NCBI GenBank assembly: GCA_029571985.1
Contig: JAKQVC010000132.1
Span: 62,001-126,000, forward strand
DNA: 64,000 nt
Direction: 5' to 3'
Origin: Bacteroidota bacterium
GTDB taxonomy: Bacteria > Bacteroidota > Bacteroidia > Chitinophagales > BACL12
Shown piece after piece: positions 31,179 to 50,637 of this stretch; position 1 is the stretch's first letter, and every line of letters begins with the position of its first letter. Both the position numbers and the translations under genes were made by a program. Below the pieces are notes generated by a model. The model was given only the letters and a program-made list of their open reading frames with translations. It made no database searches and was not told the DNA's origin.

Positions 31179-31210
31179 GTTCAAACAAGCCGACTGCTAC
31201 CAAAGAAATG

Positions 31211-31241
31211 CACGAGGCCTGGAAGACTGGGAGGCGGTAAG
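31211..31241 (+). repeat. 31-bp intergenic repeat, copy A (no insert)
   Basis: Begins CACGAGGC and ends GGCGGTAAG, preceded by AATG. It shares the framework with copies B (31338), C (45180) and D (50587). C and D carry 20 extra bases after position 8; this copy does not. Confidence 0.7.
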
Positions 31242-31337
31242 AGGAATGATAGTATAATTACTCATTCCTCTTTCCTTATTCCTTATTCCTTTTTGAACAG
31301 GTATTGAGTAGTGGGTAGTGAGTAGTGAGACAAAATG

Positions 31338-31368
31338 CACGGGGCCGGGAAGATTGGAAGCCGGAAAG
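31338..31368 (+). repeat. 31-bp intergenic repeat, copy B (no insert)
   Basis: Begins CACGGGGC followed by CGGGAAGATTGGAAG, preceded by AATG. The junction GGC/CGGGAAG matches what copy C would read without its 20-base insert. Confidence 0.65.
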
Positions 31369-31390
31369 TAGGTATTTAATGTTCCTTTGC

Positions 31391-31422
31391 GTCTCTGCGT
31401 CTCTGCGTCTCTGCGCCTCTGC
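31391..31422 (+). repeat. four tandem GTCTCTGC-type 8-bp repeats
   Basis: GTCTCTGC three times, then the variant GCCTCTGC, followed by GTGAAATT. Similar CTCTGCGT tracts are, as I recall, dispersed in several bacterial phyla. Not part of the downstream gene. Confidence 0.7.
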
Positions 31423-31499
31423 GTGAAATTGAATTATTGGTTTTTAGTTATTCCTCATTCCCCTTCACCACTCACCACTCACCATTCCCAATATCTCAT

Positions 31500-39823: not shown

Positions 39824-39909
39824 GCCCGGGTGGTGGAATCGGTAGACACGCAGGACTTAAAATCCTGTGGGCAGTAATGTCCGTGCGGGTTCAAGTCCCG
39901 CCCCGGGTA
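39824..39909 (+). tRNA. tRNA-Leu(TAA)
   Basis: Class II tRNA with a long variable arm (GGGCAGTAATGTCC). Acceptor GCCCGGG/CCCGGGT with a terminal G-T pair, anticodon arm CAGGA-CTTAAAA-TCCTG with anticodon TAA, T arm GCGGG-TTCAAGT-CCCGC. CCA is not encoded. 47 nt after tRNA-Gly and followed by its own terminator. Confidence 0.97.
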
Positions 39910-39910
39910 C

Positions 39911-39940: not shown

Positions 39941-40036
39941 TTATTACAATTTCGTCATAGCTTAATCGCATTCCTATTTTTCTGTGAAGCTTTAACATCT
40001 GGATGCAGAATAATAATTCAATTTTATAATTTAAAT

Positions 40037-40108
40037 AAAATCCTGTGGGCAGTAATGTCCGTGCGGGCCTGCCTGCCGGTAGGCAAGTTCAAGTCCCGCC
40101 CCGGGTAC
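40037..40108 (+). pseudogene. 3'-half copy of tRNA-Leu(TAA) carrying a 20-bp insert
   Basis: Positions 40037-40067 repeat 39859-39889 of the intact tRNA-Leu exactly (from the anticodon loop through the T-stem 5' side). Positions 40088-40108 repeat 39890-39910 exactly (T loop to acceptor end). Between them lies a 20-base insert at 40068-40087. The 5' half (acceptor, D arm, anticodon) is absent, so it cannot make a tRNA. A terminator hairpin follows directly. It could be the scar of an integration at the tRNA 3' end or a local duplication; no integrase is present. Confidence 0.85.
40068..40087 (-). repeat. 20-bp hairpin module in the tRNA-Leu half-copy
   Basis: Minus-strand sequence CTTGCCTACCGGCAGGCAGG: a 6-base arm, 4-base loop, 6-base arm (one G-T pair), then CAGG. 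It has the same architecture as the modules at 45203-45222 and 50610-50629. The intact tRNA-Leu shows the uninserted site. Confidence 0.75.
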
Positions 40109-40109
40109 G

Positions 40110-40137
40110 AAGCTCAGCTAAAGCTGGGCTTTTTTTA
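40110..40137 (+). terminator. terminator after the tRNA-Leu half-copy
   Basis: Stem AAGCTCAGC / GCTGGGCTT (9 bp with one G-T), loop TAAA, then seven T. Built like, but not identical to, the terminator of the intact tRNA. Confidence 0.8.
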
Positions 40138-40244
40138 TTTTTAAATGATTTCAAATATTGTTCTATCCTAAATCATTTCTCGAATAAAACGTATCAGAGG
40201 TAATAGTACAGGATTGCCCTTCCTACCTTGTTCACATATGGTAT

Positions 40245-40625
40245 CTATTTATACGGACTTGATGACAGATAAATGCGATAGTCATTATTCTCAAAAAGCA
40301 ATCCGCCATGAGCTATTTTACTCACAGTAAATTCTCCTCTATATATACTATCATCCGCATAAATGGTTAAAATAGTCTGGCTCCCAATCAGTTGAAGGCT
40401 ATATTTAACTGTTGTGGATTCAGTTTTGCCCGGAAAAGTAATCTCCGAACGTTTCGCATCAATTAAAAGTGGATTCTGCAAAGGACTATCCTTTAACACG
40501 AGCCTATTTTCAGCAGTAGTGCGTATCTCCTTAACAAACCACCACCCATCGATTGAAACAGGTTGTGGTTTGCATGCTGATATCAGCACAACCAGGCATA
40601 ATATGATTACATGAATATGTTTCAA
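40245..40625 (-). CDS. small lipoprotein of unknown function
   Basis: 126 residues, starting with TTG at 40625 (KHIHVIILCLVVLISACKPQ); no ATG covers the signal. Lipobox ISAC, so a lipidated periplasmic or surface protein. The remainder is a small beta-rich domain (GWWFVKEIRTT, GSQTILTIYADDSIYRGEF, GGLLFENNDYRIYLSSS), reminiscent of lipocalin-like lipoproteins, but this is only a resemblance. It sits in an AT-richer patch between the tRNA remnant and a decayed T9SS fragment. Confidence 0.65.
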   Translation of the reverse strand: MKHIHVIILCLVVLISACKPQPVSIDGWWFVKEIRTTAENRLVLKDSPLQNPLLIDAKRSEITFPGKTESTTVKYSLQLIGSQTILTIYADDSIYRGEFTVSKIAHGGLLFENNDYRIYLSSSPYK

Positions 40626-40637
40626 TTTAAAAATAGA

Positions 40638-40853
40638 TCAACTGCGGAACAGGCAAATTGTATACGACAAATCTAAACCAAAAGGCCCTAAGACCAGCTT
40701 TTCTGATACATCTCCATCAGAAGAATATGCAGTAGTTGCCATTATACAACCTGAATCAACAGCATTACCGGGGCTATACCCAATGTCAGTTTGCATTCCA
40801 CCAAAACTCTTTTGCCAAAAAATATCAGAACCCTGCGCCAACAACAGTTTCAT
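40638..40853 (-). pseudogene. decayed fragment of a T9SS repeat protein
   Basis: 71-codon open stretch whose product reads WQKSFGGMQTDIGYS then SGCIMATTAYSSDGDVS. This resembles the common Bacteroidota surface repeat of the type W-x-K-(S/T)-x-GGS-x-xD-x-(A/G)YS ... DGGYI-x-AG-x-T-x-S-x-DGDVS. About one and a half repeat units remain and the sequence then loses resemblance. No signal peptide or sorting domain. Probably a leftover of a larger gene lost from this site; expression is doubtful. An extension of the frame to 41006 overlaps the next gene's start and is not credible. Confidence 0.5.
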
Positions 40854-40931
40854 AAAAATGCTTTTTAGTGTCCTTTGTAAATAGTAATTTCGCTTATTAT
40901 ATGCTATTTTATAACTAATTTTCACGTATCC

Positions 40932-43427
40932 ATGAAATTGAGAACTTTCATATTTAATCTCTTTTTGGTGTTGATATGTATGTGGTCTTTTCCTTCCTAC
41001 TCGCAATCAAATCGTATTATTGTTATTCAACCGTATGAAACTGACGACTTAGATCTTACATTAAATTCTGTATACGGAATAGGAAATTATGAAAAACACT
41101 ACTATTACGACTTTGGATTACCATTGTTTGATTTCATACCAATTGATTCAACAATATGCACTATCCTACTAATTGAAGATCCAAGTGCAAGTTCTCAATT
41201 TAATGCATTTTATAATTTTTACAAATCTACAATAGAAGATTGGGTGGCTGATGGGGGTCATTTATTAATTAACACCGCATACATTGAAGATGGCAATTTT
41301 GAAATAGGTTTTGGAGACGTAAATTTTAGTACAACTAATTATACATTTTGCTCAGACGCAAGTTGCTTTGAAATTGCTGATACGACTCACCTAATATTTA
41401 ATGGTCCAAATTTACCAGCGTATTCTCCTATTTACGATTTTTCATTTACCCACATACAAGGGCCGGAATTAGATACACTCCTTGTTGATACAATACGGCA
41501 ACATGTAATATTGAGTGAAAAATTTTGGGGCCTAGGAGTCGTAATTTTCGCAGCAGGAATTAATCTCGCCCAAACACCAAGCTATTATCTTGGAGCAAAT
41601 ATTTTTTCATACCTTTCGCCATGTTTAAAACCGCCGATTGACATTGGCGTACAAATTATATTAACACCTGATACACAGTGCAGCTATAGTGAAACCGAAG
41701 CGATTGAAATAGTTGTCAGGAATTATGGCCTGTTAGACCAAACTAGCTTCCAAATAGCATATTCAATTGACGGAGGGGATCCAACTATTGAATTAATAAC
41801 CGATACATTGAAAGCGGGGTTTGCTAAAAATTACACTTTTACCGTGTCTGCAAATTTAAGTGAAGGAGTTAGTCACAATATTTCTGCGTGGAGTAATATT
41901 TTGGGTGATATAAATTTTATTAACGATACTACAAGTAAACAAATTACAAGATTGCTTCCTGCGACCACAATCGGCTTCCCCAATGTTTTGTGTGCGAATG
42001 TCGAAGAATATATTGCAAATCCAGAATACCCAACTGGCATATGGTCTGGCGAAGGCGTTTCAGATTCATTAAATGGAATAATCAACACATCATTATTAAC
42101 GCCCGGCGAGTCTACAATAATTAGTTATCAATATTCGGTTCCTATAGCTTATTTACAGGAAACAATACCTTATGGATTAAGAGATAGTATCTCACCAAAT
42201 TATTTATATTTTGATGACATTGGAAGCACAAAGGTTGATATAGGATTCACCTTTAAATATTTTGGGAACACATATGATTCAATTTACATTGGAGCAAATG
42301 GAATTTTAACTTTTGACAGTGGATACAACTTCGGACTACCTGACTTTATTGAAGCAACGAATAATAGTATAGCTGTTTGTGAGGGTGACTTGCACCAGCA
42401 AGCAGGTGGTAAGTTGTATTTTGAAACACAAGGAACCGCACCTAACAGAGAATTTGTTGTTTCCTATGATGAAATTCCATTTTGGTTTCCTCCAACTGAA
42501 CATGTAAATGTTCAATGTATACTGCATGAAAATTCATCGCAAATAGAATTTCAAATTGAATCAATAGACATTAATACTTATGGCTCGCATTTCGTGCTTC
42601 AAGGGATTTGCAATTCTGATTTGAGTCAAAAATATTACACAACCTCTACAGACAACCCTTGGAGTTATTCAATTTACGACACTGCATTTATTTTTAATCC
42701 AATCACTTGTGACACAATTATTTCTCAAAGCATATATCTTATGCCTGATTATGAGTTCAACCTACCAAGTGATACAGTAAGTTGTAATCTTGATGGAATA
42801 TTACTGGAAATTCCAAATGGAGATTATGGGTTTAATTGGTCTACCGGCGACTCAACTAACCTGACAAACATTGTAGAGCCGGGAATGATTTGGGTAACAG
42901 CCACCGATTCTGCGTGTTTATACAGCGATTCTATTTATGTTTTTATGGAAAGTCCGCCTTTGGTTGAAGTAGAAACCGTTGCCAGTTTACCAGATTATCC
43001 AACAGGTCTCGCGACAGCAGTTGTTACAGGCGGCACTTATCCTTATGAATATTTGTGGAATGACGGTCAAACAACCGCGACTATTTCAAGTTTAGCACCC
43101 GGCACTTACACAGTAACGATTTTTGATTCTTTAGGTTGCACAAGCGAAGCATCAGGCACAGTTGATATTATTGATAGTGCTATTGATACTAATGAGCTAT
43201 TTTCTATTTACCCTAATCCAGCAAATAGTATTGTACATCTCAAAGTTACAAGCGAAATGATTGGCGCTTTAGCATATTTCTATTCAGCTGATGAATCGTT
43301 ACGCATGAAAAAAACGCTGAAAGAAATAGACAACACAATAGATATCAATGACTTCCCGGCAGGAATGTATACAGTTACTTTGGTCAGCAACAATGTGAAA
43401 ACATCGCTTAAATTTGTAAAACAATGA
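40932..43427 (+). CDS. T9SS type A surface protein with SprB-type repeat
   Basis: 831 residues. Signal peptide KLRTFIFNLFLVLICMWSFPSYSQ. The N-terminal ~220 residues form an unrecognised alpha/beta domain (IIVIQPYETDDLDLT, DWVADGGHLLINTAYIEDG) resembling glutamine-amidotransferase-like folds in which a cleft lies behind an acidic loop. Ig/CARDB-like segments follow (IDIGVQIILTPDTQC). One SprB-type repeat lies at about residues 677-740 (VVTGGTYPYEYLWNDGQTTA, SLAPGTYTVTIFDSLGCT). The last ~75 residues are a type A sorting domain (FSIYPNPANSIVHLKV ... FPAGMYTVTLVS). The first two-thirds are visibly more AT-rich than neighbouring genes, suggesting acquisition or lineage-specific origin. Confidence 0.8.
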   Translation: MKLRTFIFNLFLVLICMWSFPSYSQSNRIIVIQPYETDDLDLTLNSVYGIGNYEKHYYYDFGLPLFDFIPIDSTICTILLIEDPSASSQFNAFYNFYKSTIEDWVADGGHLLINTAYIEDGNFEIGFGDVNFSTTNYTFCSDASCFEIADTTHLIFNGPNLPAYSPIYDFSFTHIQGPELDTLLVDTIRQHVILSEKFWGLGVVIFAAGINLAQTPSYYLGANIFSYLSPCLKPPIDIGVQIILTPDTQCSYSETEAIEIVVRNYGLLDQTSFQIAYSIDGGDPTIELITDTLKAGFAKNYTFTVSANLSEGVSHNISAWSNILGDINFINDTTSKQITRLLPATTIGFPNVLCANVEEYIANPEYPTGIWSGEGVSDSLNGIINTSLLTPGESTIISYQYSVPIAYLQETIPYGLRDSISPNYLYFDDIGSTKVDIGFTFKYFGNTYDSIYIGANGILTFDSGYNFGLPDFIEATNNSIAVCEGDLHQQAGGKLYFETQGTAPNREFVVSYDEIPFWFPPTEHVNVQCILHENSSQIEFQIESIDINTYGSHFVLQGICNSDLSQKYYTTSTDNPWSYSIYDTAFIFNPITCDTIISQSIYLMPDYEFNLPSDTVSCNLDGILLEIPNGDYGFNWSTGDSTNLTNIVEPGMIWVTATDSACLYSDSIYVFMESPPLVEVETVASLPDYPTGLATAVVTGGTYPYEYLWNDGQTTATISSLAPGTYTVTIFDSLGCTSEASGTVDIIDSAIDTNELFSIYPNPANSIVHLKVTSEMIGALAYFYSADESLRMKKTLKEIDNTIDINDFPAGMYTVTLVSNNVKTSLKFVKQ

Positions 43428-43436
43428 AATTTATGC

Positions 43437-43468
43437 AAAGGGTGATGACGATTGCCATAACCCTTTTT
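43437..43468 (+). terminator. probable terminator after the T9SS type A gene
   Basis: Inverted repeat AAAGGGT ... ACCCTTT around a 16-nt loop followed by more T. Weaker than the other terminators. Confidence 0.55.
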
Positions 43469-43545
43469 ATTTTCTCATATAGGGTTGATTATGACCTTTC
43501 AATTAAAAGTTTTTATCGGGCTGTAGATTTGAATAAAGATTTATG

Positions 43546-44595
43546 TTACCTTTTGATACCCTTCTTATTCAAAGTCTGAATATAAATATCTCTGTTACGA
43601 TTATGCTCGTCTAAGGTTTTTGCAAAAAGGTGATAACCGGAACCATCACCATTCGCGCACATAAAAATATAATCGTGCTGCTCATAATTTAACACAGCAT
43701 CAATATAAGCGATTGGCGGCATATGAATAGGTCCGGGAGGTAAGCCCGGATATTTGTAGGTATTGTAAGGCGACTCAATTTCTAAATCAGCATATAACAG
43801 GCGTTTAATAGTAAAATCGCCGATGGCGAATATTACAGTCGGGTCAGCCTCGAGTTTCTGGCCCTTATTTATTCTATTCATATACACTCCGGCAATGCGA
43901 GGAGCCTCATCCGTTGCGCGTTCATTTTCAGAATATACAATAGACGCAAGCACATACACCTGTGTTGGTGTCAAGCCAATTTTTTCAGCCTTATTTATTC
44001 TTTCGGCTGTCCAAAAAGCATCGTGCTCTTTTAACATGCGTTCAGCAAATTCGGAGGCAGTGGCCGTCCAATACAATTCATATGTATTCGGGATGAATAC
44101 CGTCATGTAGTTGTCGGGCGTAAATCCCCGTTTTGTAAATAAGGATGTGGTATCTAAAAATCCGAGTAATGCTGCTGAATCCAAATCTAATTGCTGAGCA
44201 ATGCGACCGGCAAAATCTTGTTTAGTGCGCATATTATTAAAGGTGATACGCACAGGTGTTTGTCGACCACTCATCAATAGATTTACAATTTCGCGATTAC
44301 TCATGCCGGGTTCAATCAGGTAATGACCGCGTTTCAGATGATCCGGTAGTCCCTGCCGTTTTGCCCACCAGGTAAAGCCATCCGTATTGCGCAAAATTTG
44401 CTGCTCGTCAAATTGCGCAACTATTTGTTCAAATTGCGCTCCTTCTGTCACATAAATATGTGCCGGATTTTCCGACTGAACATTTGGGCCTACAATTTTC
44501 TGATAGGTAGCATATCCAAAGTAAGCCGCAGCAGCTCCAGTTATGAATAGAGCTGCCGCGGTATACAGGACAATTTTTTGGGTGCGGGGTGTCAT
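43546..44595 (-). CDS. mltG: endolytic murein transglycosylase MltG
   Basis: 349 residues from ATG 44595 (TPRTQKIVLYTAAALF), the codon 4 nt after an exact promoter box; an extension to 44610 runs into the box. One transmembrane helix, a LysM-like region (YVTEGAQFEQIVAQFDEQ), then the YceG catalytic domain. The catalytic Glu is in IVYSENERATDEAPRIAGVY and the conserved NRINKGQKLEADPTV, ESPYNTYKYPGLPPGPI and GDGSGYHLFAKTLDEHN are all present. It cuts nascent glycan strands in the inner membrane and sets their length. It stands alone; family members are often near yqgF or tmk, not seen here. Confidence 0.93.
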   Translation of the reverse strand: MTPRTQKIVLYTAAALFITGAAAAYFGYATYQKIVGPNVQSENPAHIYVTEGAQFEQIVAQFDEQQILRNTDGFTWWAKRQGLPDHLKRGHYLIEPGMSNREIVNLLMSGRQTPVRITFNNMRTKQDFAGRIAQQLDLDSAALLGFLDTTSLFTKRGFTPDNYMTVFIPNTYELYWTATASEFAERMLKEHDAFWTAERINKAEKIGLTPTQVYVLASIVYSENERATDEAPRIAGVYMNRINKGQKLEADPTVIFAIGDFTIKRLLYADLEIESPYNTYKYPGLPPGPIHMPPIAYIDAVLNYEQHDYIFMCANGDGSGYHLFAKTLDEHNRNRDIYIQTLNKKGIKR

Positions 44596-44599
44596 CCCA

Positions 44600-44607
44600 C
44601 AAAAATA
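44600..44607 (-). promoter_or_regulatory. -7 promoter box TATTTTTG, 4 nt before mltG ATG
   Basis: Exact TAnnTTTG on the minus strand with TGGG before ATG 44595; predicts a leaderless mRNA. No TTTG at -33. Confidence 0.6.
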
Positions 44608-44693
44608 CAAAACTCAACCTTTCCGGCTTCAGACTGAAAAGGGGTATTGGTGTTATGATTTTTTACCTGAATCGCATGCCTGCTGAGCATCAA

Positions 44694-45032
44694 TCAGGAA
44701 TATTGCACATATTGCAGGCGCATGGTATATAATTTTCCAGTTTCTATACAATCGCACTCAACAGATTGATTCTGTAAGGTATCGTATACATGATCTGCCA
44801 GAAAAATGTTACCGGATGCAATTTGTTTGACATGAATTAATCCGGTATCATCTACCAAAAAAGTTACGGTAACATAACCTTCCAGATCAAATTCAGAAAA
44901 AGGTGTTTGCTTCGAAATTAATTCGGAAATAGATTCTTTTAAAGGATCTTCAGCACAGCCATCAGAGGCAAATGCCGGCCTTGAAAGCAACATGCTCAAA
45001 GCCACTATTCCGGAACATACTATAGTTTTCAT
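44694..45032 (-). CDS. small secreted protein, TonB-C-like (paralogue of 45364-45705)
   Basis: 112 residues. Signal peptide KTIVCSGIVALSMLLSRPAFA. Mature part: LKESISELISKQTPFSEFDL followed by GYVTVTFLVDDTGLIHVKQI, the strand-turn-strand pattern of a TonB C-terminal-like domain, then a C-x-C pair (VECDCIE). The order of elements and signal type match the downstream paralogue, though identity is low. Possibly a periplasmic domain without a partner; the function is unknown. A 331-nt repeat-rich gap separates the two genes. Confidence 0.65.
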   Translation of the reverse strand: MKTIVCSGIVALSMLLSRPAFASDGCAEDPLKESISELISKQTPFSEFDLEGYVTVTFLVDDTGLIHVKQIASGNIFLADHVYDTLQNQSVECDCIETGKLYTMRLQYVQYS

Positions 45033-45099
45033 AATTACGTGTTTTGTTTGTTACATCTATAGCGGATGCCGATGGTGATTTGTTACTTAAGGAAATGTT

Positions 45100-45149
45100 A
45101 AAAAAGAGGAATGAGGAAAAAGGAATGAGGAATGAGGAATGAGGAATGA
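45100..45149 (+). repeat. GAGGAATGA-type simple repeat next to copy C
   Basis: Purine-rich tract built from GGAATGAG units. In the orientation of copy C it lies downstream of the 31-bp repeat, the same order as the pyrimidine tract after copy A at 31261. Confidence 0.65.
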
Positions 45150-45179
45150 CTAATAGGTCGTTTTGCAAAACCTCTCCAA

Positions 45180-45230
45180 CTTACCGCCTTCCTGACTTCC
45201 CGCCTGCCCGCCTCACGGCGGGGCCTCGTG
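45180..45230 (-). repeat. 31-bp intergenic repeat, copy C, with 20-bp insert
   Basis: On the minus strand it begins CACGAGGC, then 20 extra bases (45222-45203), then CGGGAAGTC through GGCGGTAAG. Removing the insert leaves exactly 31 bases and restores the junction seen in copy B. Confidence 0.7.
45203..45222 (-). repeat. 20-bp hairpin module in copy C
   Basis: Minus-strand CCCGCCGTGAGGCGGGCAGG: perfect 6-base arms CCCGCC/GGCGGG, loop GTGA, tail CAGG. Same size and architecture as the module in the tRNA-Leu half-copy. Confidence 0.75.
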
Positions 45231-45278
45231 AATTTATTCTACTACCTTTTTAGAGGAGTGAGGATAAAGAGCTGCATT

Positions 45279-45309
45279 AAAAAAAAAGACCGCCTTTAGC
45301 AGGCGGTCT
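45279..45309 (-). terminator. terminator of the small secreted protein gene at 45364
   Basis: Minus-strand hairpin AGACCGCC / GGCGGTCT (8 bp, perfect), loop TGCTAAA, followed by nine T. Confidence 0.9.
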
Positions 45310-45363
45310 GGGAAGGACGGGACGGATGACGTTGTCCCGGCCAACTTGAACGATCAGCATTCT

Positions 45364-45705
45364 TTATTTTGATTGCACAACATCAACGATGAAGTGAATA
45401 GTCTTGCCTACCAGTGAATCTTCAACAATCATTACAGCACCTTCAATGCTTTTGCGGATATGATATTCGAGCACATAGTTGTCTGTTTGAATTCCATCGA
45501 GGTGAACCTGACCTGCTTCATCAATGGTAAGGGTAATTTCAGCTTTGCCTTCAACACCCAATTCATTTACTACTTCGGGATTTGTTACTATTTGCTCAAC
45601 TGTTTGTTGAACTGAAGATTTTTCTTTGTCATTGGTATTGCCATCATTATGAGCAAAAACAGCAGAGCTAAGAACAAGAGCGATAATGGTAAGTACAGTT
45701 TTCAT
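45364..45705 (-). CDS. small secreted protein, TonB-C-like (paralogue of 44694-45032)
   Basis: 113 residues. Signal peptide KTVLTIIALVLSSAVFAHN. Mature part SVQQTVEQIVTNPEVVNELG then GKAEITLTIDEAGQVHLDGI, the same element order as the neighbour (helix, then two strands with D-x-x-G turn), ending in FIVDVVQSK. Well-formed terminator downstream. It lacks the C-x-C pair of its paralogue. Likely periplasmic; no assigned function. Confidence 0.65.
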   Translation of the reverse strand: MKTVLTIIALVLSSAVFAHNDGNTNDKEKSSVQQTVEQIVTNPEVVNELGVEGKAEITLTIDEAGQVHLDGIQTDNYVLEYHIRKSIEGAVMIVEDSLVGKTIHFIVDVVQSK

Positions 45706-45818
45706 ATTGTTTGGTTTTGATATGGTTAAGTGTTTATTATTCGGTTACAAACATGAGTCGAACCACCCCTAACTTTTGTTACAGCCGGCAGCAAATATTT
45801 TTTTGAAAAAGGGAAATA

Positions 45819-47042
45819 TCAGCCTCTTTTTCGGCTGGAATTCAATCCCAGCAAGGCATTGAAGAAACTAAAAAAAACGACCCCACTTTGTGTTTTGAGC
45901 ATCGATTCGGTGGTTATGTTAACCATAAACAGGAGCAAAAAGGCACCCCACAGATAATTTTTATCCTTCCAGGCCAGCCACAAACAGACCAAAAAGAAGC
46001 CTAAAAAGAAGAGCATACCCGGAAGTCCGGTTTCAACCAAGGCCTGAAAATAGGCATTGTGGGCATTGTATCGTTCTTCAACTCCGGTGGTAAAACCATT
46101 TTCGGCATATTGGTTTATCAGCACCTGTTGAGCATCACCAGAACCAACGCCCAACCACAAATGGTCATCAGCCACCTGACCAACAGCCTTCCAAATTTCT
46201 TCACGCGAATCCACACTATTTGTGTAGGATACTTCATTATAATGCAGCAACATCAACATGCGTTGCCGTGTATAAGGCAATGCCATCATAGCCAAAAACA
46301 GCACGAGATTACCTATAACGGCAATAAATGCTGTTCGTTTCCAGCCCAAATACGTGCGCCCCCAAACAATGAACGCAATCGTCAGAGCCAAAAACATACT
46401 GGCGATAGCAATTTTGGCTGTTAACAATAATACAAACAACATGAAAAAGGCAATAGCTATCAGCATTACCCATATTCGCCTGCTTGATAGTTCGCGATAG
46501 CCGGTAATTATTTCACGAGCAATAACAATCATGGCAAACACCATAAACATCGCAATATAGGATGGATGGATGAATGTAAAGTCGACCAAATATTTATAGT
46601 AAAAATGATTTTCACCGGTGCGTATAAAATCATATAAGGCGAGTCCCAGAGCAACTACACCAAATGCCGCACAGGCAAAAACGAACGCATTTAAAAATGT
46701 CTGAATAGCCTTTTGCGTTACCTGTCCAAACGCCGCCATGAATACCGGTATCAGCAACAGATATAATTTGACATTTGCATCACGCAGGGCTTCCTGTTTA
46801 TCGGTTGAACGCAAATAGGCATAACCCACTAAAAGATACAATGCGGCAAAAATCATCCATCGTTTATGCGTGGTGAAATACATCCACCTTGACCGGTAAT
46901 TTCCGCTAAACAGAATAATAATGAAGGATAAAATGAGTAACGGGGAGCTTAATACTTTATGAAAAGGGATGGTGAGCACCATGAGCAACCAAATGATGAG
47001 CACCACTTTTTGAATCCATGTATACCCTTCGAATATGCGCAT
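45819..47042 (-). CDS. O-antigen ligase / Wzy-type polysaccharide membrane protein
   Basis: 407 residues with about eleven hydrophobic segments (VVLIIWLLMVLTIPF, LLILSFIIILF, FALTIAFIVWG). The Wzy_C region includes SREEIWKAVGQVADDHLWLG, VGSGDAQQVLINQYAENG and RYNAHNAYFQALVETGLPG, with the conserved His and Arg of ligases. It could join O-antigen or exopolysaccharide to a lipid or protein acceptor, or act as polymerase; sequence does not separate these. Its ATG overlaps the stop of the upstream sugar transferase by one base, so the two are co-translated. Confidence 0.85.
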   Translation of the reverse strand: MRIFEGYTWIQKVVLIIWLLMVLTIPFHKVLSSPLLILSFIIILFSGNYRSRWMYFTTHKRWMIFAALYLLVGYAYLRSTDKQEALRDANVKLYLLLIPVFMAAFGQVTQKAIQTFLNAFVFACAAFGVVALGLALYDFIRTGENHFYYKYLVDFTFIHPSYIAMFMVFAMIVIAREIITGYRELSSRRIWVMLIAIAFFMLFVLLLTAKIAIASMFLALTIAFIVWGRTYLGWKRTAFIAVIGNLVLFLAMMALPYTRQRMLMLLHYNEVSYTNSVDSREEIWKAVGQVADDHLWLGVGSGDAQQVLINQYAENGFTTGVEERYNAHNAYFQALVETGLPGMLFFLGFFLVCLWLAWKDKNYLWGAFLLLFMVNITTESMLKTQSGVVFFSFFNALLGLNSSRKRG

Positions 47043-48463
47043 CAGGTACCCTTAAATTTAATCATGACGCCTATTGTTTTGACAATAATCACGAGGTCAA
47101 GCAACAGGGAACGATGTTTAATATAATACAAATCGTATTGCAATTTGATCAGCGTATCGTCAAAATTATTTGCGTAATGATGTTTTACCTGAGCCCAACC
47201 GGTGAGTCCGGGTTTAACTGCTGACCGAAGTGTAAAGAATGGAATTTGCTTACTCAACTCCTCCACAAAATAGGCGCGTTCGGGTCGCGGACCAATTAAA
47301 TTAATATCACCCCTTAATACATTCCAGCACTGGGGTAATTCATCAAGTCGGGTTTTGCGCAATACTTTTCCGACTGGTGTAACACGCGCATCATCACGGT
47401 CGGCAAACTTAGGACCTGTATGCTTTTCAGCATCTACAATCATCGTGCGGAATTTGATGATGCGGAAAGGTTTGTTCTGTTCGCCAACGCGTTCCTGCGC
47501 ATAAAATAGCGGGCCTCTGCACAATAACATATTTGCAAGCCAGACAAATGGCAACACGATTACACATACAATTCCAGCCAGCAAAGCACAAGTAATATTG
47601 ATAAGTCGATTAATGGCTAAATACAATTTTTCCTTATGTACAATACTAAAGGGATCTGTTACATAATACACATCGCCCTTTTTCTTAATCATGACACGAC
47701 CGGTTTGCTCTTCATAAATTTCTGTTGCCGAAGAAATCTGAATACCTTGTTGTTCGCACTGCATGAGGGCGGTATATAAAGCAGGAGAAATATCTTCTTT
47801 ATCCGGGATAGCTAAAATAAGTTCATTCACACCCAAACGCGTTGCAAATTTGACTAAGGTGCCGGTATCGCCCAATACTTTAACCTCATCATATATTTTT
47901 CCTGTTTTTACGGCATCATCATCAATATACCCATAGATACGGTATGCTGTTTTATGATAAATGGCAGGATCATGTAATAAGGTGCGTACAATTTCTCTAC
48001 CGGCATATCCTGCACCAATAACAAGCGCCTTCTTGTTTAGAATGGGATGCATAAAAAACAGTGCATAACACAACCGCCAGGTAAGAACCAGAATGACCAT
48101 CGCGCCAATTAAGGCGAAAGCTGGTAATCGGCTGAATGGCAAGGTAGGACTCACATAAGGTATAAAGATGTAAGTAAGCCCGGTTAACACTGCCGTTAAA
48201 ATAGTATTGCGAATGGTAGTGCGGGTTCTGTCGACATTAGCCAGTTTATACAAATCGAACAGATAACTATAAAAAAACCAGAGCACCAACAGCATCACTA
48301 CCCACAGGAGGTTATCCATAAAGGAGTGATAAGAGCTGAGTGCACTAGGATGAAAAAAACGGATATAGACAAATAGTGCTGCCAAAATCAGCAGTATATC
48401 CACTACAATAAGGATATATCTTCTGAAAATAAAACGCAGGTCATATGCACTTTGAGGCGCCAT
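47042..48463 (-). CDS. undecaprenyl-phosphate sugar phosphotransferase
   Basis: 473 residues. Four to five N-terminal transmembrane helices (LILAALFVYIRFF, LWVVMLLVLWFFYSYLF), a Rossmann-like middle (KALVIGAGYAGREIVRTLL), a re-entrant helix near residue 300, and the C-terminal transferase (FRIIKFRTMIVDAEKH, TRLDELPQCWNVLRGDINLI, GPRPERAYFVEELS, VKPGLTGWAQV). It places the first sugar phosphate on undecaprenyl phosphate to start O-antigen or exopolysaccharide synthesis. It is in operon with the ligase. The sugar is not predictable from sequence alone. Confidence 0.93.
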   Translation of the reverse strand: MAPQSAYDLRFIFRRYILIVVDILLILAALFVYIRFFHPSALSSYHSFMDNLLWVVMLLVLWFFYSYLFDLYKLANVDRTRTTIRNTILTAVLTGLTYIFIPYVSPTLPFSRLPAFALIGAMVILVLTWRLCYALFFMHPILNKKALVIGAGYAGREIVRTLLHDPAIYHKTAYRIYGYIDDDAVKTGKIYDEVKVLGDTGTLVKFATRLGVNELILAIPDKEDISPALYTALMQCEQQGIQISSATEIYEEQTGRVMIKKKGDVYYVTDPFSIVHKEKLYLAINRLINITCALLAGIVCVIVLPFVWLANMLLCRGPLFYAQERVGEQNKPFRIIKFRTMIVDAEKHTGPKFADRDDARVTPVGKVLRKTRLDELPQCWNVLRGDINLIGPRPERAYFVEELSKQIPFFTLRSAVKPGLTGWAQVKHHYANNFDDTLIKLQYDLYYIKHRSLLLDLVIIVKTIGVMIKFKGT

Positions 48464-48473
48464 CGTAAGTGCA

Positions 48474-48481
48474 CAAAATTA
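48474..48481 (-). promoter_or_regulatory. -7 promoter box TAATTTTG for the polysaccharide operon
   Basis: Exact TAnnTTTG on the minus strand, 10 nt before ATG 48463. Leader of only about 5 nt. Confidence 0.5.
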
Positions 48482-48517
48482 ACAATTTAGATGCCGAATA
48501 GAGGCAAGAGAGCCGAA

Positions 48518-49453
48518 TCAGTCGAGGAAGATGGTATAATCCGGCTTGTCGGCTACCGATTTGTGTACAAACTGCTTTGTTATGCGGCCTTCCTGCAGCA
48601 GGAAAATGCCCGGCATTTGCGTTACGTCACCCTCAGGCTTTGTATTAAACAGGCGTTTTCTCCACCCAAGTGATATCCAACGAGCCCATACTTTAATTCC
48701 GAATAACTGTATGAAACTTCCGCGACGCAGTCTGAAACTCTTATAGAAAATTTCTTCAGGGTCACTCACCTGAGCCAGATCCTGAAGTCCATATTGCGAC
48801 AAATACTCTTGTGCAATTTTATCATTAACCATATAAACAAGCACAATGGTTATACCTCTGGATTCCAGTTGCGCCCGATGCTCCTGTAGTTGGAGTAAAC
48901 TTTCTTTACAAAAAGGACAACCAAAGTGCCTCAGGAAGACCAATAATAATTGCTCCTGATCGGCCAGATCTCCAATATTTCTGCCATCCGTGGTATCGAA
49001 AAGGGCTAATGGATATTGGTTACTGTTGAAGGTATCGATGAGCATATCGTCAGTATCCAGATTTCTGCGATACACCAAATAGAGCACATAAGCGTTAGGA
49101 ATCAACCAGATAATATGATTGAAAAACAGGAAAGGGAGGTATACGTTGTTGAACATCCCCATTTTGAAGCCTGCCAGAAAACCGGTAATCATACCCACGT
49201 GAAAGAGCGATGCTAATAAAATAATCAGCCAGTGTTTAAACGGATTAAAGGAGGCGATTAGCAGCACCACACCAAGCATAAAGGTGATGATACCCATGAA
49301 ATCCCAGAATACAATAGGCGTGTTTTTTTCTTCAACCACAACTGAATGCAGGAGCGAGGGGGATATAAATACCATTACCCCCCATACCATAAAGTAGAGT
49401 GCACTGATAAATATCGAGGCGTTAAGTCTGCTCTGAAGCGGCTGAAAATACAT
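48518..49453 (-). CDS. membrane protein fused to a SelL/peroxiredoxin-like redox domain
   Basis: 311 residues. The first ~130 residues hold four transmembrane helices (ISALYFMVWGVMVFIS, IITFMLGVVLLIASF, WLIILLASLFHVGMITGF, FFNHIIWLIPNAYVLYLV). Residues ~165-311 are a thioredoxin-fold domain of the AhpC-TSA_2/SelL group: LLVFLRHFGCPFCKESLLQL with the C-x-x-C redox site, LVYMVNDKIAQEYLS and MPGIFLLQEGRI. The orientation suggests a cytoplasmic redox domain tethered to the membrane. Substrate unknown. It lies just upstream of the polysaccharide operon but is separated from it by 54 nt with its own promoter. Confidence 0.8.
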   Translation of the reverse strand: MYFQPLQSRLNASIFISALYFMVWGVMVFISPSLLHSVVVEEKNTPIVFWDFMGIITFMLGVVLLIASFNPFKHWLIILLASLFHVGMITGFLAGFKMGMFNNVYLPFLFFNHIIWLIPNAYVLYLVYRRNLDTDDMLIDTFNSNQYPLALFDTTDGRNIGDLADQEQLLLVFLRHFGCPFCKESLLQLQEHRAQLESRGITIVLVYMVNDKIAQEYLSQYGLQDLAQVSDPEEIFYKSFRLRRGSFIQLFGIKVWARWISLGWRKRLFNTKPEGDVTQMPGIFLLQEGRITKQFVHKSVADKPDYTIFLD

Positions 49454-49522
49454 ATCCTTATTGCATGGTAAACAAGTTCGATGCCAGATTGTTTACCTTT
49501 ACGCTCTAAAATTATCAAATAC

Positions 49523-50371
49523 ATGCAAAAACTACGCATACTTGGCATAACTCTCCTCACATTGGTGGTTATGCAGGCTCAAGCCCAGGAATTAGAACTC
49601 CCGCAACCCAGTCCATGGGCGCAGGTTTCACAGAAATACGGACTCTCACAGGTTACCGTAACTTATTCACGTCCAGCCATGAAAGGCCGCAAAATTTTCG
49701 GCGGTTTGGTCCCTTATGGTGAAATGTGGCGTACAGGAGCCAATAAGGCCATTGAGTTGAAACTGGAAGGCGACAACCGGATTAACGGTCAGCAGATCGA
49801 ACCGGGTGCCTACAGCCTGTTTACCATTCCCGGTCAAACAGAATGGACCATCATCATTAACAAGAACACTGAGCTCTGGGGAACCGGCGGTTACAAGCAG
49901 GAAGAAGATGTGATGCGTTTCACCGTAAAACCCGGCACTTGCGCGTCAACTGAATCCTTTACGATTGGATTTGCCAATGTAAAAGAGAAATCGCTGACCG
50001 TTGAATTAAGTTGGGAAACCACCAAAGTGTCATTCGATATCACAACCGAAATAGTTGAACAAGGCAAGGCTAATATTGATGCGGCTATTCAGGCTGCTGA
50101 AAATACAATGGGTTTGTATAACGATGCTGCTGAATTTTATCTGGATAATAATTTAGATGCAAAAATTGCATTGGAATGGGCTAAAAAATCAGTTGCGCAA
50201 CGCGAACGCTATTGGAATTTGTACACATTAGCCCGTGCATATGCTGCTAATGGTATGAAAAAAGAAGCTGTTGAAACTGCAGAGCGTTCTTTAACTCTGT
50301 CGAACGAAGCAAAAAATACCGGATTCTCTCAAACGATTGAAAAATCTTTGACAGAATGGAAAGGTAAATAA
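49523..50371 (+). CDS. DUF2911 domain-containing secreted protein
   Basis: 282 residues from ATG 49523, which begins the signal peptide QKLRILGITLLTLVVMQAQAQ; an in-frame ATG at 49481 adds fourteen residues. Residues ~25-180 are the DUF2911 domain: PSPWAQVSQKYGLSQVTVTY, RPAMKGRKIFGGLVPYGEMW, RTGANKAIEL and PGAYSLFTIPG. The last ~95 residues are TPR-like helices (LEWAKKSVAQRERYWNLYT, AYAANGMKKEAVETAE). The family is common in Bacteroidota and its role is unknown. A strong terminator follows. Confidence 0.85.
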   Translation: MQKLRILGITLLTLVVMQAQAQELELPQPSPWAQVSQKYGLSQVTVTYSRPAMKGRKIFGGLVPYGEMWRTGANKAIELKLEGDNRINGQQIEPGAYSLFTIPGQTEWTIIINKNTELWGTGGYKQEEDVMRFTVKPGTCASTESFTIGFANVKEKSLTVELSWETTKVSFDITTEIVEQGKANIDAAIQAAENTMGLYNDAAEFYLDNNLDAKIALEWAKKSVAQRERYWNLYTLARAYAANGMKKEAVETAERSLTLSNEAKNTGFSQTIEKSLTEWKGK

Positions 50372-50394
50372 AACAGTCATCGAAAATCTTGTGA

Positions 50395-50427
50395 AAGGCT
50401 AACCGATTTTGGTTAGCCTTTTTTTTG
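50395..50427 (+). terminator. rho-independent terminator after DUF2911 gene
   Basis: Perfect 10-bp stem AAGGCTAACC / GGTTAGCCTT, loop GATTTT, eight T. Confidence 0.92.
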
Positions 50428-50510
50428 TGGGTGGTTGTGGTTGTTTGGAGGGATGTTTATTTGAATGCATGTTTGAATGGTTGAGTGTTTGAATGAACCT
50501 CACCCCCTGG

Positions 50511-50536
50511 CCCCCTCTCCTTGAAAGGAGAGGGGG
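50511..50536. repeat. perfect 12-bp inverted repeat CCCCCTCTCCTT / AAGGAGAGGGGG
   Basis: Two-nucleotide loop GA; no T-tract, so not a normal terminator. The preceding CACCCCCTGGCC and this pyrimidine/purine arm resemble dispersed repeats that I recall from intergenic regions of other Bacteroidota. Confidence 0.75.
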
Positions 50537-50586
50537 AATTGTTTATTGTTATATATAGTCATAGATTGCCTAATTAATTTATACAT

Positions 50587-50637
50587 CTTACCGCCTTCCA
50601 GTCAGTGCGGCTGCCCGCCTCCCGGCTGGGCCTGGTA
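50587..50637 (-). repeat. 31-bp intergenic repeat, copy D, with 20-bp insert
   Basis: On the minus strand it begins TACCAGGC, then 20 extra bases (50629-50610), then CGCACTGACTGGAAGGCGGT through AAG. 51 bases in all, the same as copy C, with the insert at the same point. Confidence 0.65.
50610..50629 (-). repeat. 20-bp hairpin module in copy D
   Basis: Minus-strand CCAGCCGGGAGGCGGGCAGC: arms CCAGCC/GGCGGG with one mismatch, loop GGGA, tail CAGC. Third copy of the module in the window. Confidence 0.7.

Follow-up and report, generated by a model that had tools for sequence, protein, structure and literature searches.

The window, as we call the whole stretch of DNA analysed here (64,000 nucleotides from a Bacteroidota bacterium; contig JAKQVC010000132.1, positions 62,001 to 126,000), contains three 20-base segments that a first-pass annotation had taken for one hairpin module inserted at three sites. 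All three were found at the coordinates and on the strand given there (Table 1). One of them splits a 3′ half-copy of tRNA-Leu(UAA), which begins at TAAAATCC and whose two matching parts are 100% and 96% identical to an intact parent tRNA in the same window. The parent does represent the site without the insert, as had been proposed: it reads GTGCGGG/TTCAAG, whereas the half-copy reads GTGCGGG-CCTGCCTGCCGGTAGGCAAG-TTCAAG, with exactly 20 extra bases after GTGCGGG and a boundary that is ambiguous by 1 base. The other two segments lie in a dispersed repeat with an octamer period, and the two copies of this repeat that had been annotated as uninserted indeed lack the segment.

Table 1. Features of the window discussed in the text.
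Feature	Position	Strand	Remark
P20 palindrome CCTGCCTGCCGGTAGGCAAG	40068..40087	+	Inserted in the T-arm, at the 5′ stem/loop border, of the tRNA-Leu 3′ half-copy
tRNA-Leu(UAA) 3′ half-copy	40036..40108	+	From the anticodon on; the palindrome splits the copy
Intact tRNA-Leu(UAA), site without insert	39824..39910	+	
Long form of the octamer-period repeat, CACGAGGCC-[hairpin]-GGGAAGNCNGGAAGGCGGTAAG	45180..45230	-	Lineage-specific
Hairpin CCCGCCGTGAGGCGGGCAGG	45203..45222	-	Fixed part of the long form
Long form of the repeat, second copy	50587..50637	-	More diverged
Hairpin CCAGCCGGGAGGCGGGCAGC	50610..50629	-	Imperfect stem
Short form of the octamer-period repeat	31210..31241	+	Without hairpin
Second short-form copy in the window	31337..31368	+	Without hairpin

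The three segments had been said to share a plan of a 6-base arm, a 4-base loop and a 6-base arm. A clean hairpin of this kind is predicted at 45203 (-7.6 kcal/mol), but the segments at 40068 and 50610 fold weakly on their own (-3.5 kcal/mol each, no better than shuffles), and the stem of the latter contains an A/G mismatch. A near-palindrome of 20 bp describes the segment at 40068 better than a hairpin does. It is one base away from a 20-base palindrome, CCTGCCTGCCGGYAGGCARG (also written CCTGCCTGCCGGTAGGCAGG), which we term P20. The three hairpins of the window are two different things: a copy of P20 at 40068 and a repeat-borne hairpin at 45203 and 50610.

The octamer-period repeat (CACGAGGCC ... 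GGGAAGACTGGAAGGCGGTAAG) was seen in the source genome only, where it has 55 core copies when up to 3 mismatches are allowed, against 0 for the reversed control. With up to 6 substitutions allowed, the loci retrieved contain 62 core sites; most are short forms reading CACGAGGCC/GGGAAG, and approximately 10-17 sites carry the 20-base hairpin, always at one point. The hairpin pattern CCCGCC-N4-GGCGGGCAGGC was found in only 1 of 299 genomes of the order, which is the source genome itself. Independent insertion at 45203 and 50610 is contradicted by the surrounding 59-bp stretches, which are repeats with 78% identity, and by the position of the hairpin, which is the same in every long copy genome-wide. 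In the sister species G001, we found the intergenic regions orthologous to 45203 and 31211, but what they lack is the entire repeat and not the hairpin alone, so that gain or loss of the hairpin by itself could not be scored there. The one fixed hairpin point, the single-genome pattern and the absence of the whole repeat from the orthologous regions of G001 indicate that 45203 and 50610 are parts of one lineage-specific composite repeat that was multiplied as a unit, and the reading of one module at three sites fails for them. A genome-wide search with the 20-mer pattern suggested in the annotation did yield 6 matches, against 0 for its reversed control, but all except the tRNA one fall in the octamer family. 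The accompanying remark that sequence differs between copies while architecture holds was misleading: the mobile element is nearly fixed in sequence, and it is the repeat-borne hairpin that drifts. The window also holds heptamer and octamer arrays (AATGAGG, GTAGTGA and CTCTGCGT) at 45085-45150, 31250-31300, 31300-31330 and 31383-31425, and arrays of the GTAGTGA and CTCTGCGT types occur in G001 as well, at other loci.

P20 is found far beyond the source genome. Allowing up to 1 mismatch, 58 of 299 genomes of the order contain it, with up to 36 copies each, compared with 1 of 299 for the reversed control. An exact 20-mer scan of one genome per species, which favours the T form of P20, returned at least 120 stretches in many phyla, where less than about 1 match per 20-mer would be expected by chance in 257 Gb (our own arithmetic, assuming uniform composition). 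The matches listed place P20 in at least 12 groups that are usually given the rank of phylum; by record title, the taxa include Bacteroidota, many Patescibacteria lineages, Omnitrophota, Nitrospirota, Chloroflexi and WOR-3, together with Stahlbacteria, Elusimicrobia, Ignavibacteria, Spirochaetia, Deltaproteobacteria/Thermodesulfobacteriota and Phycisphaerae. Olivibacter jilunii and Algoriphagus kandeliae are isolate species among the exact matches listed. Most of the genomes are drafts or metagenome bins, and the insertion contexts described below are a sample. In 2.9 million viral contigs, the T form of P20 was found in 8 stretches and the C form in 33, whereas two control palindromes of the same composition had 0 and 0 matches in these contigs. 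A 29-kb viral contig, IMGVR_UViG_3300037242_000417 (our loci L460, L467 and L468), contains six P20 copies, and a 33-kb bacterial stretch (G025:C2:1200428-1232722) contains eight, mostly in repeats of the GTCATTCCGAGC...GAGG/AATC type. A 35-base query made of tRNA plus P20 gave no usable match in plasmids. In the open-access literature, no paper was found with a 14- to 20-base P20 motif, and the papers matching 11-12 bases were unrelated to judge from their titles and abstracts.

Filled and empty versions of the same site can be compared directly in several cases. In a phage tRNA-Met (L464), P20 lies between CACGAGG and TCGCCGG, which are directly joined in five related phage contigs. Another phage contig, L443, shares this insertion point and is missing approximately 13 bp after P20. 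For two further phage insertions, we sought empty counterparts and found only filled contigs. At a bacterial site, site D, one of the two sister species G039 and G072 reads AAGAGGCAA-P20-GACACAAG and the other AAGAGGCAATACACAAG, with 93% identity across 249 bases of the left flank; elsewhere in this set, some species have a filled site where others show plain tandem heptamers. At 19 of 287 distinct insertion sites, there is an empty version that aligns across the junction to a tRNA, compared with 13 of 1122 control positions taken 120-170 bp from P20 sites. We also found seven nested copies, P20 within P20, all of them inserted after base 11. At D-arm sites, the ends are unambiguous and the inserted unit is CCTG...CAGG, 20 bp long and without duplication. 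A target-site duplication, as expected of miniature inverted-repeat elements (MITEs), was absent at the phage tRNA-Met, at site D and at the tRNA sites. In the cleanest cases, exactly 20 bp have been added, and the target shows neither duplication nor loss. The comparison of orthologous sites with and without the insert, which had been proposed as a check, gives clean 20-bp presence and absence for the relatives of P20. For the tRNA-Leu insertion, but not for the other two segments, there is good support for the earlier idea of a very small mobile element lacking both a transposase and a target duplication.

Within tRNAs, 18 of 19 P20 insertions fall in the T-arm, D-loop or variable loop, either in a loop or where it borders a stem; the interior of a stem holds only one, against an expectation of 49% (P ~5e-5). 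The avoidance of stems holds for the 14 independent tRNA sites (P ~1e-3, or 4e-3 with the null restricted to positions of the R/K type described next). Among 184 oriented sites, the base at -1 is mostly R (G or A) and the base at +1 mostly K (G or T). Outside tRNAs, 17 of 171 junctions lie within or at a local hairpin loop (stem of at least 6), compared with 6.0 +/- 1.6. The loop preference overlaps partly with the R/K base preference, yet survives R/K matching. P20 is mostly intergenic, with copies inside open reading frames of at least 200 amino acids in 10 of 88 cases against 60 expected. The tRNA-Leu T-arm position used in the window is also filled in G072 and G082; in G026 and G001, the copy at this position has one or two variant bases or is decayed. 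The 3′ border of the D-arm is filled in Bacteroidota genomes, in Magasanikbacteria and in viral contig L471.

An intact tRNA accompanied by a P20-bearing half-copy approximately 80-400 bp away is a recurrent arrangement (G000, G026, L109, L173, L228, L237 and others); in the cases checked, the half-copy is downstream of the intact tRNA if it is a 3′ half and upstream if it is a 5′ half. Some copies are found within proteins. In a Daviesbacteria sequence (L247, 5144-5163), P20 is in frame within a protein that we take, by sequence likeness, to be the GTPase Obg, giving PNLGVIK-SLPAGRQ-VIADIPG, and a presumed T9SS-type protein in L201, named on the same basis, reads KPE-NLPAGRQG-IQPQ. 'LPAGRQ' peptides in other predicted proteins may likewise be marks of P20 insertion.

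Each genome tends toward its own P20 variant. Pairs of the same variant within genomes number 367, compared with a mean of 205 after shuffling, and none of 5000 shuffles reaches 367; the copies of G039, for example, are all of the C/G form and those of G265 mostly of the T/A form. Part of this amplification is multiplication of a host repeat that contains P20 and not transposition (G265 and G039). Orthologous P20 loci include 16-bp and shifted 20-bp length variants, from which we conclude that slippage also acts on P20, and plain decay is seen in G001. Pairing-preserving changes in P20 were not taken as evidence for structure, because every transition in a palindrome produces a wobble pair on one of the strands.

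We consider it probable that the segment at 40068 represents P20, a candidate ultrashort non-autonomous mobile palindrome inserted at unpaired positions by an enzyme acting in trans, and that 45203 and 50610 belong to a separate repeat. A hairpin-recognising enzyme of this kind would take a folded single strand as its substrate, either single-stranded DNA or RNA that is later copied, and would paste the palindrome into an unpaired stretch of that strand; its targets would be the arms of tRNAs, hairpins of other kinds and the middle of P20 copies. The copies would afterwards decay, or ride along as a host repeat multiplies. More tentatively, P20 might form a class of mobile DNA of its own, a perfect palindrome of 20 bp without gene, tag or target duplication that depends on a putative enzyme, enters unpaired targets and spreads between phyla, with phages as a plausible carrier.

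Y1 and RAYT transposases are the natural suspects, since their substrates are hairpins and single-stranded DNA and their action produces no duplication. P20 could then be a REP-like element moved in trans by RAYT/Y1 (HUH) transposases, its four-base tag (CCTG or CAGG) and 6-bp hairpin being excised and inserted as single-stranded DNA. The size, palindromy, intergenic bias and absent target duplication of P20 would fit such an origin, its 6-4-6-4 plan would correspond to tag plus hairpin, and Y1_Tnp genes are present in G000, G001 and G026. We nevertheless find it unlikely: P20 has no GTAG or CGTC tag at an unpaired end, none of 12 Y1_Tnp loci has P20 within approximately 1.5 kb, a profile search of 120 palindrome loci gave one weak Y1 match only, and G002 contains P20 copies and gave no Y1_Tnp match. 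An error of replication or repair, in which template switching copies the palindrome into another stalled hairpin without a dedicated enzyme, would account for insertions at loops and palindrome centres, for slippage-like length variants at orthologous sites and for P20 copies within tandem heptamer arrays. Harder to explain in this way are the recurrence of an identical 20-mer across phyla and phages, against zero viral matches for either of two comparable palindromes, and the exact ends without microhomology, and we give this reading a low probability.

The constant sequence of P20 across phyla and its mostly intergenic placement could also reflect a functional signal, such as a terminator, a binding site or an uptake signal, that is kept or recreated by selection. 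The patchy distribution, the insertions in dead tRNA halves and other repeats, the in-frame insertion in Obg and the decay in G001 all argue against this, and we consider it very unlikely. With regard to the window itself, it is doubtful that one module was inserted three times and that the repeat-borne hairpin is an old, diverged P20. The two have an equal length of 20 bases and match at 14 of 20 positions, a level that 0.5% of random GC-rich hairpins with this plan attain under a rough null of arbitrary composition, and the short forms of the repeat provide a clean empty site; but a fixed point in one repeat family of one genome allows at most one insertion before multiplication, and the octamer period of the repeat also runs on through the right (3′) half of the hairpin. 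These comparisons suggest that the octamer-borne hairpin and P20 are unrelated or at best anciently related, a common origin being possible. Our preferred reading keeps P20 as an element inserted in trans and treats the repeat-borne hairpin separately. Confirmation would place P20 with the smallest known mobile units and would call for a mechanism by which a bare hairpin is pasted into a structured target without duplication. A confirmed P20 would allow a direct test between RAYT-type, replication-type and other mechanisms, would account for 'LPAGRQ' peptides in predicted proteins and for broken tRNA copies in many genomes, and would provide a sequence-level tracer for transfer between phyla and phages.

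Both the octamer-period repeat and the heptamer arrays that host P20 resemble short tandemly repeated repetitive (STRR) sequences, but the octamer family differs: its dispersed unit is composite, starts from a defined head, CACGAGGCC, and may or may not include the hairpin. The closest bacterial parallels to P20 are the GTAG- and CGTC-tagged REP families, which are palindromic sequences of 20-40 bp, mainly extragenic, sometimes in frame in genes and thought to be mobile; those described are species-specific or common to some species, and the repeat that flanks a RAYT gene is of the GTAG type, the CGTC type being reported without a dedicated transposase (PMC3733652). P20 is like them in being a multicopy, extragenic palindrome within this size range. 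It differs in having no GTAG or CGTC unpaired end, in an inserted unit of CCTG...CAGG to which, judging from the empty sites, nothing more is added, in not lying beside Y1 transposase genes at the 12 Y1_Tnp and 120 palindrome loci, and in keeping the same sequence across phyla. Unlike MITEs, P20 has no target-site duplication flanking terminal inverted repeats. IS200/IS605 elements have hairpin ends, produce no target duplication, use single-stranded DNA targets and insert 3′ of a fixed tetra- or pentanucleotide. P20 shares the lack of target duplication with them but lacks a gene and an interior, and in place of a fixed target tetranucleotide it shows just the R/K preference at 184 oriented sites. 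Other very small elements are the GC clusters and ultrashort elements such as MUSE1 of fungal mitochondria (PMC4478555, PMC7218506) and the hairpin elements of sponge mitochondrial DNA (PMC2800124). Like P20, these are tiny and interspersed, many are palindromic or hairpin-forming, and they are considered mobile; they are mitochondrial, however, whereas P20 occurs in bacteria and phages as one nearly fixed sequence.
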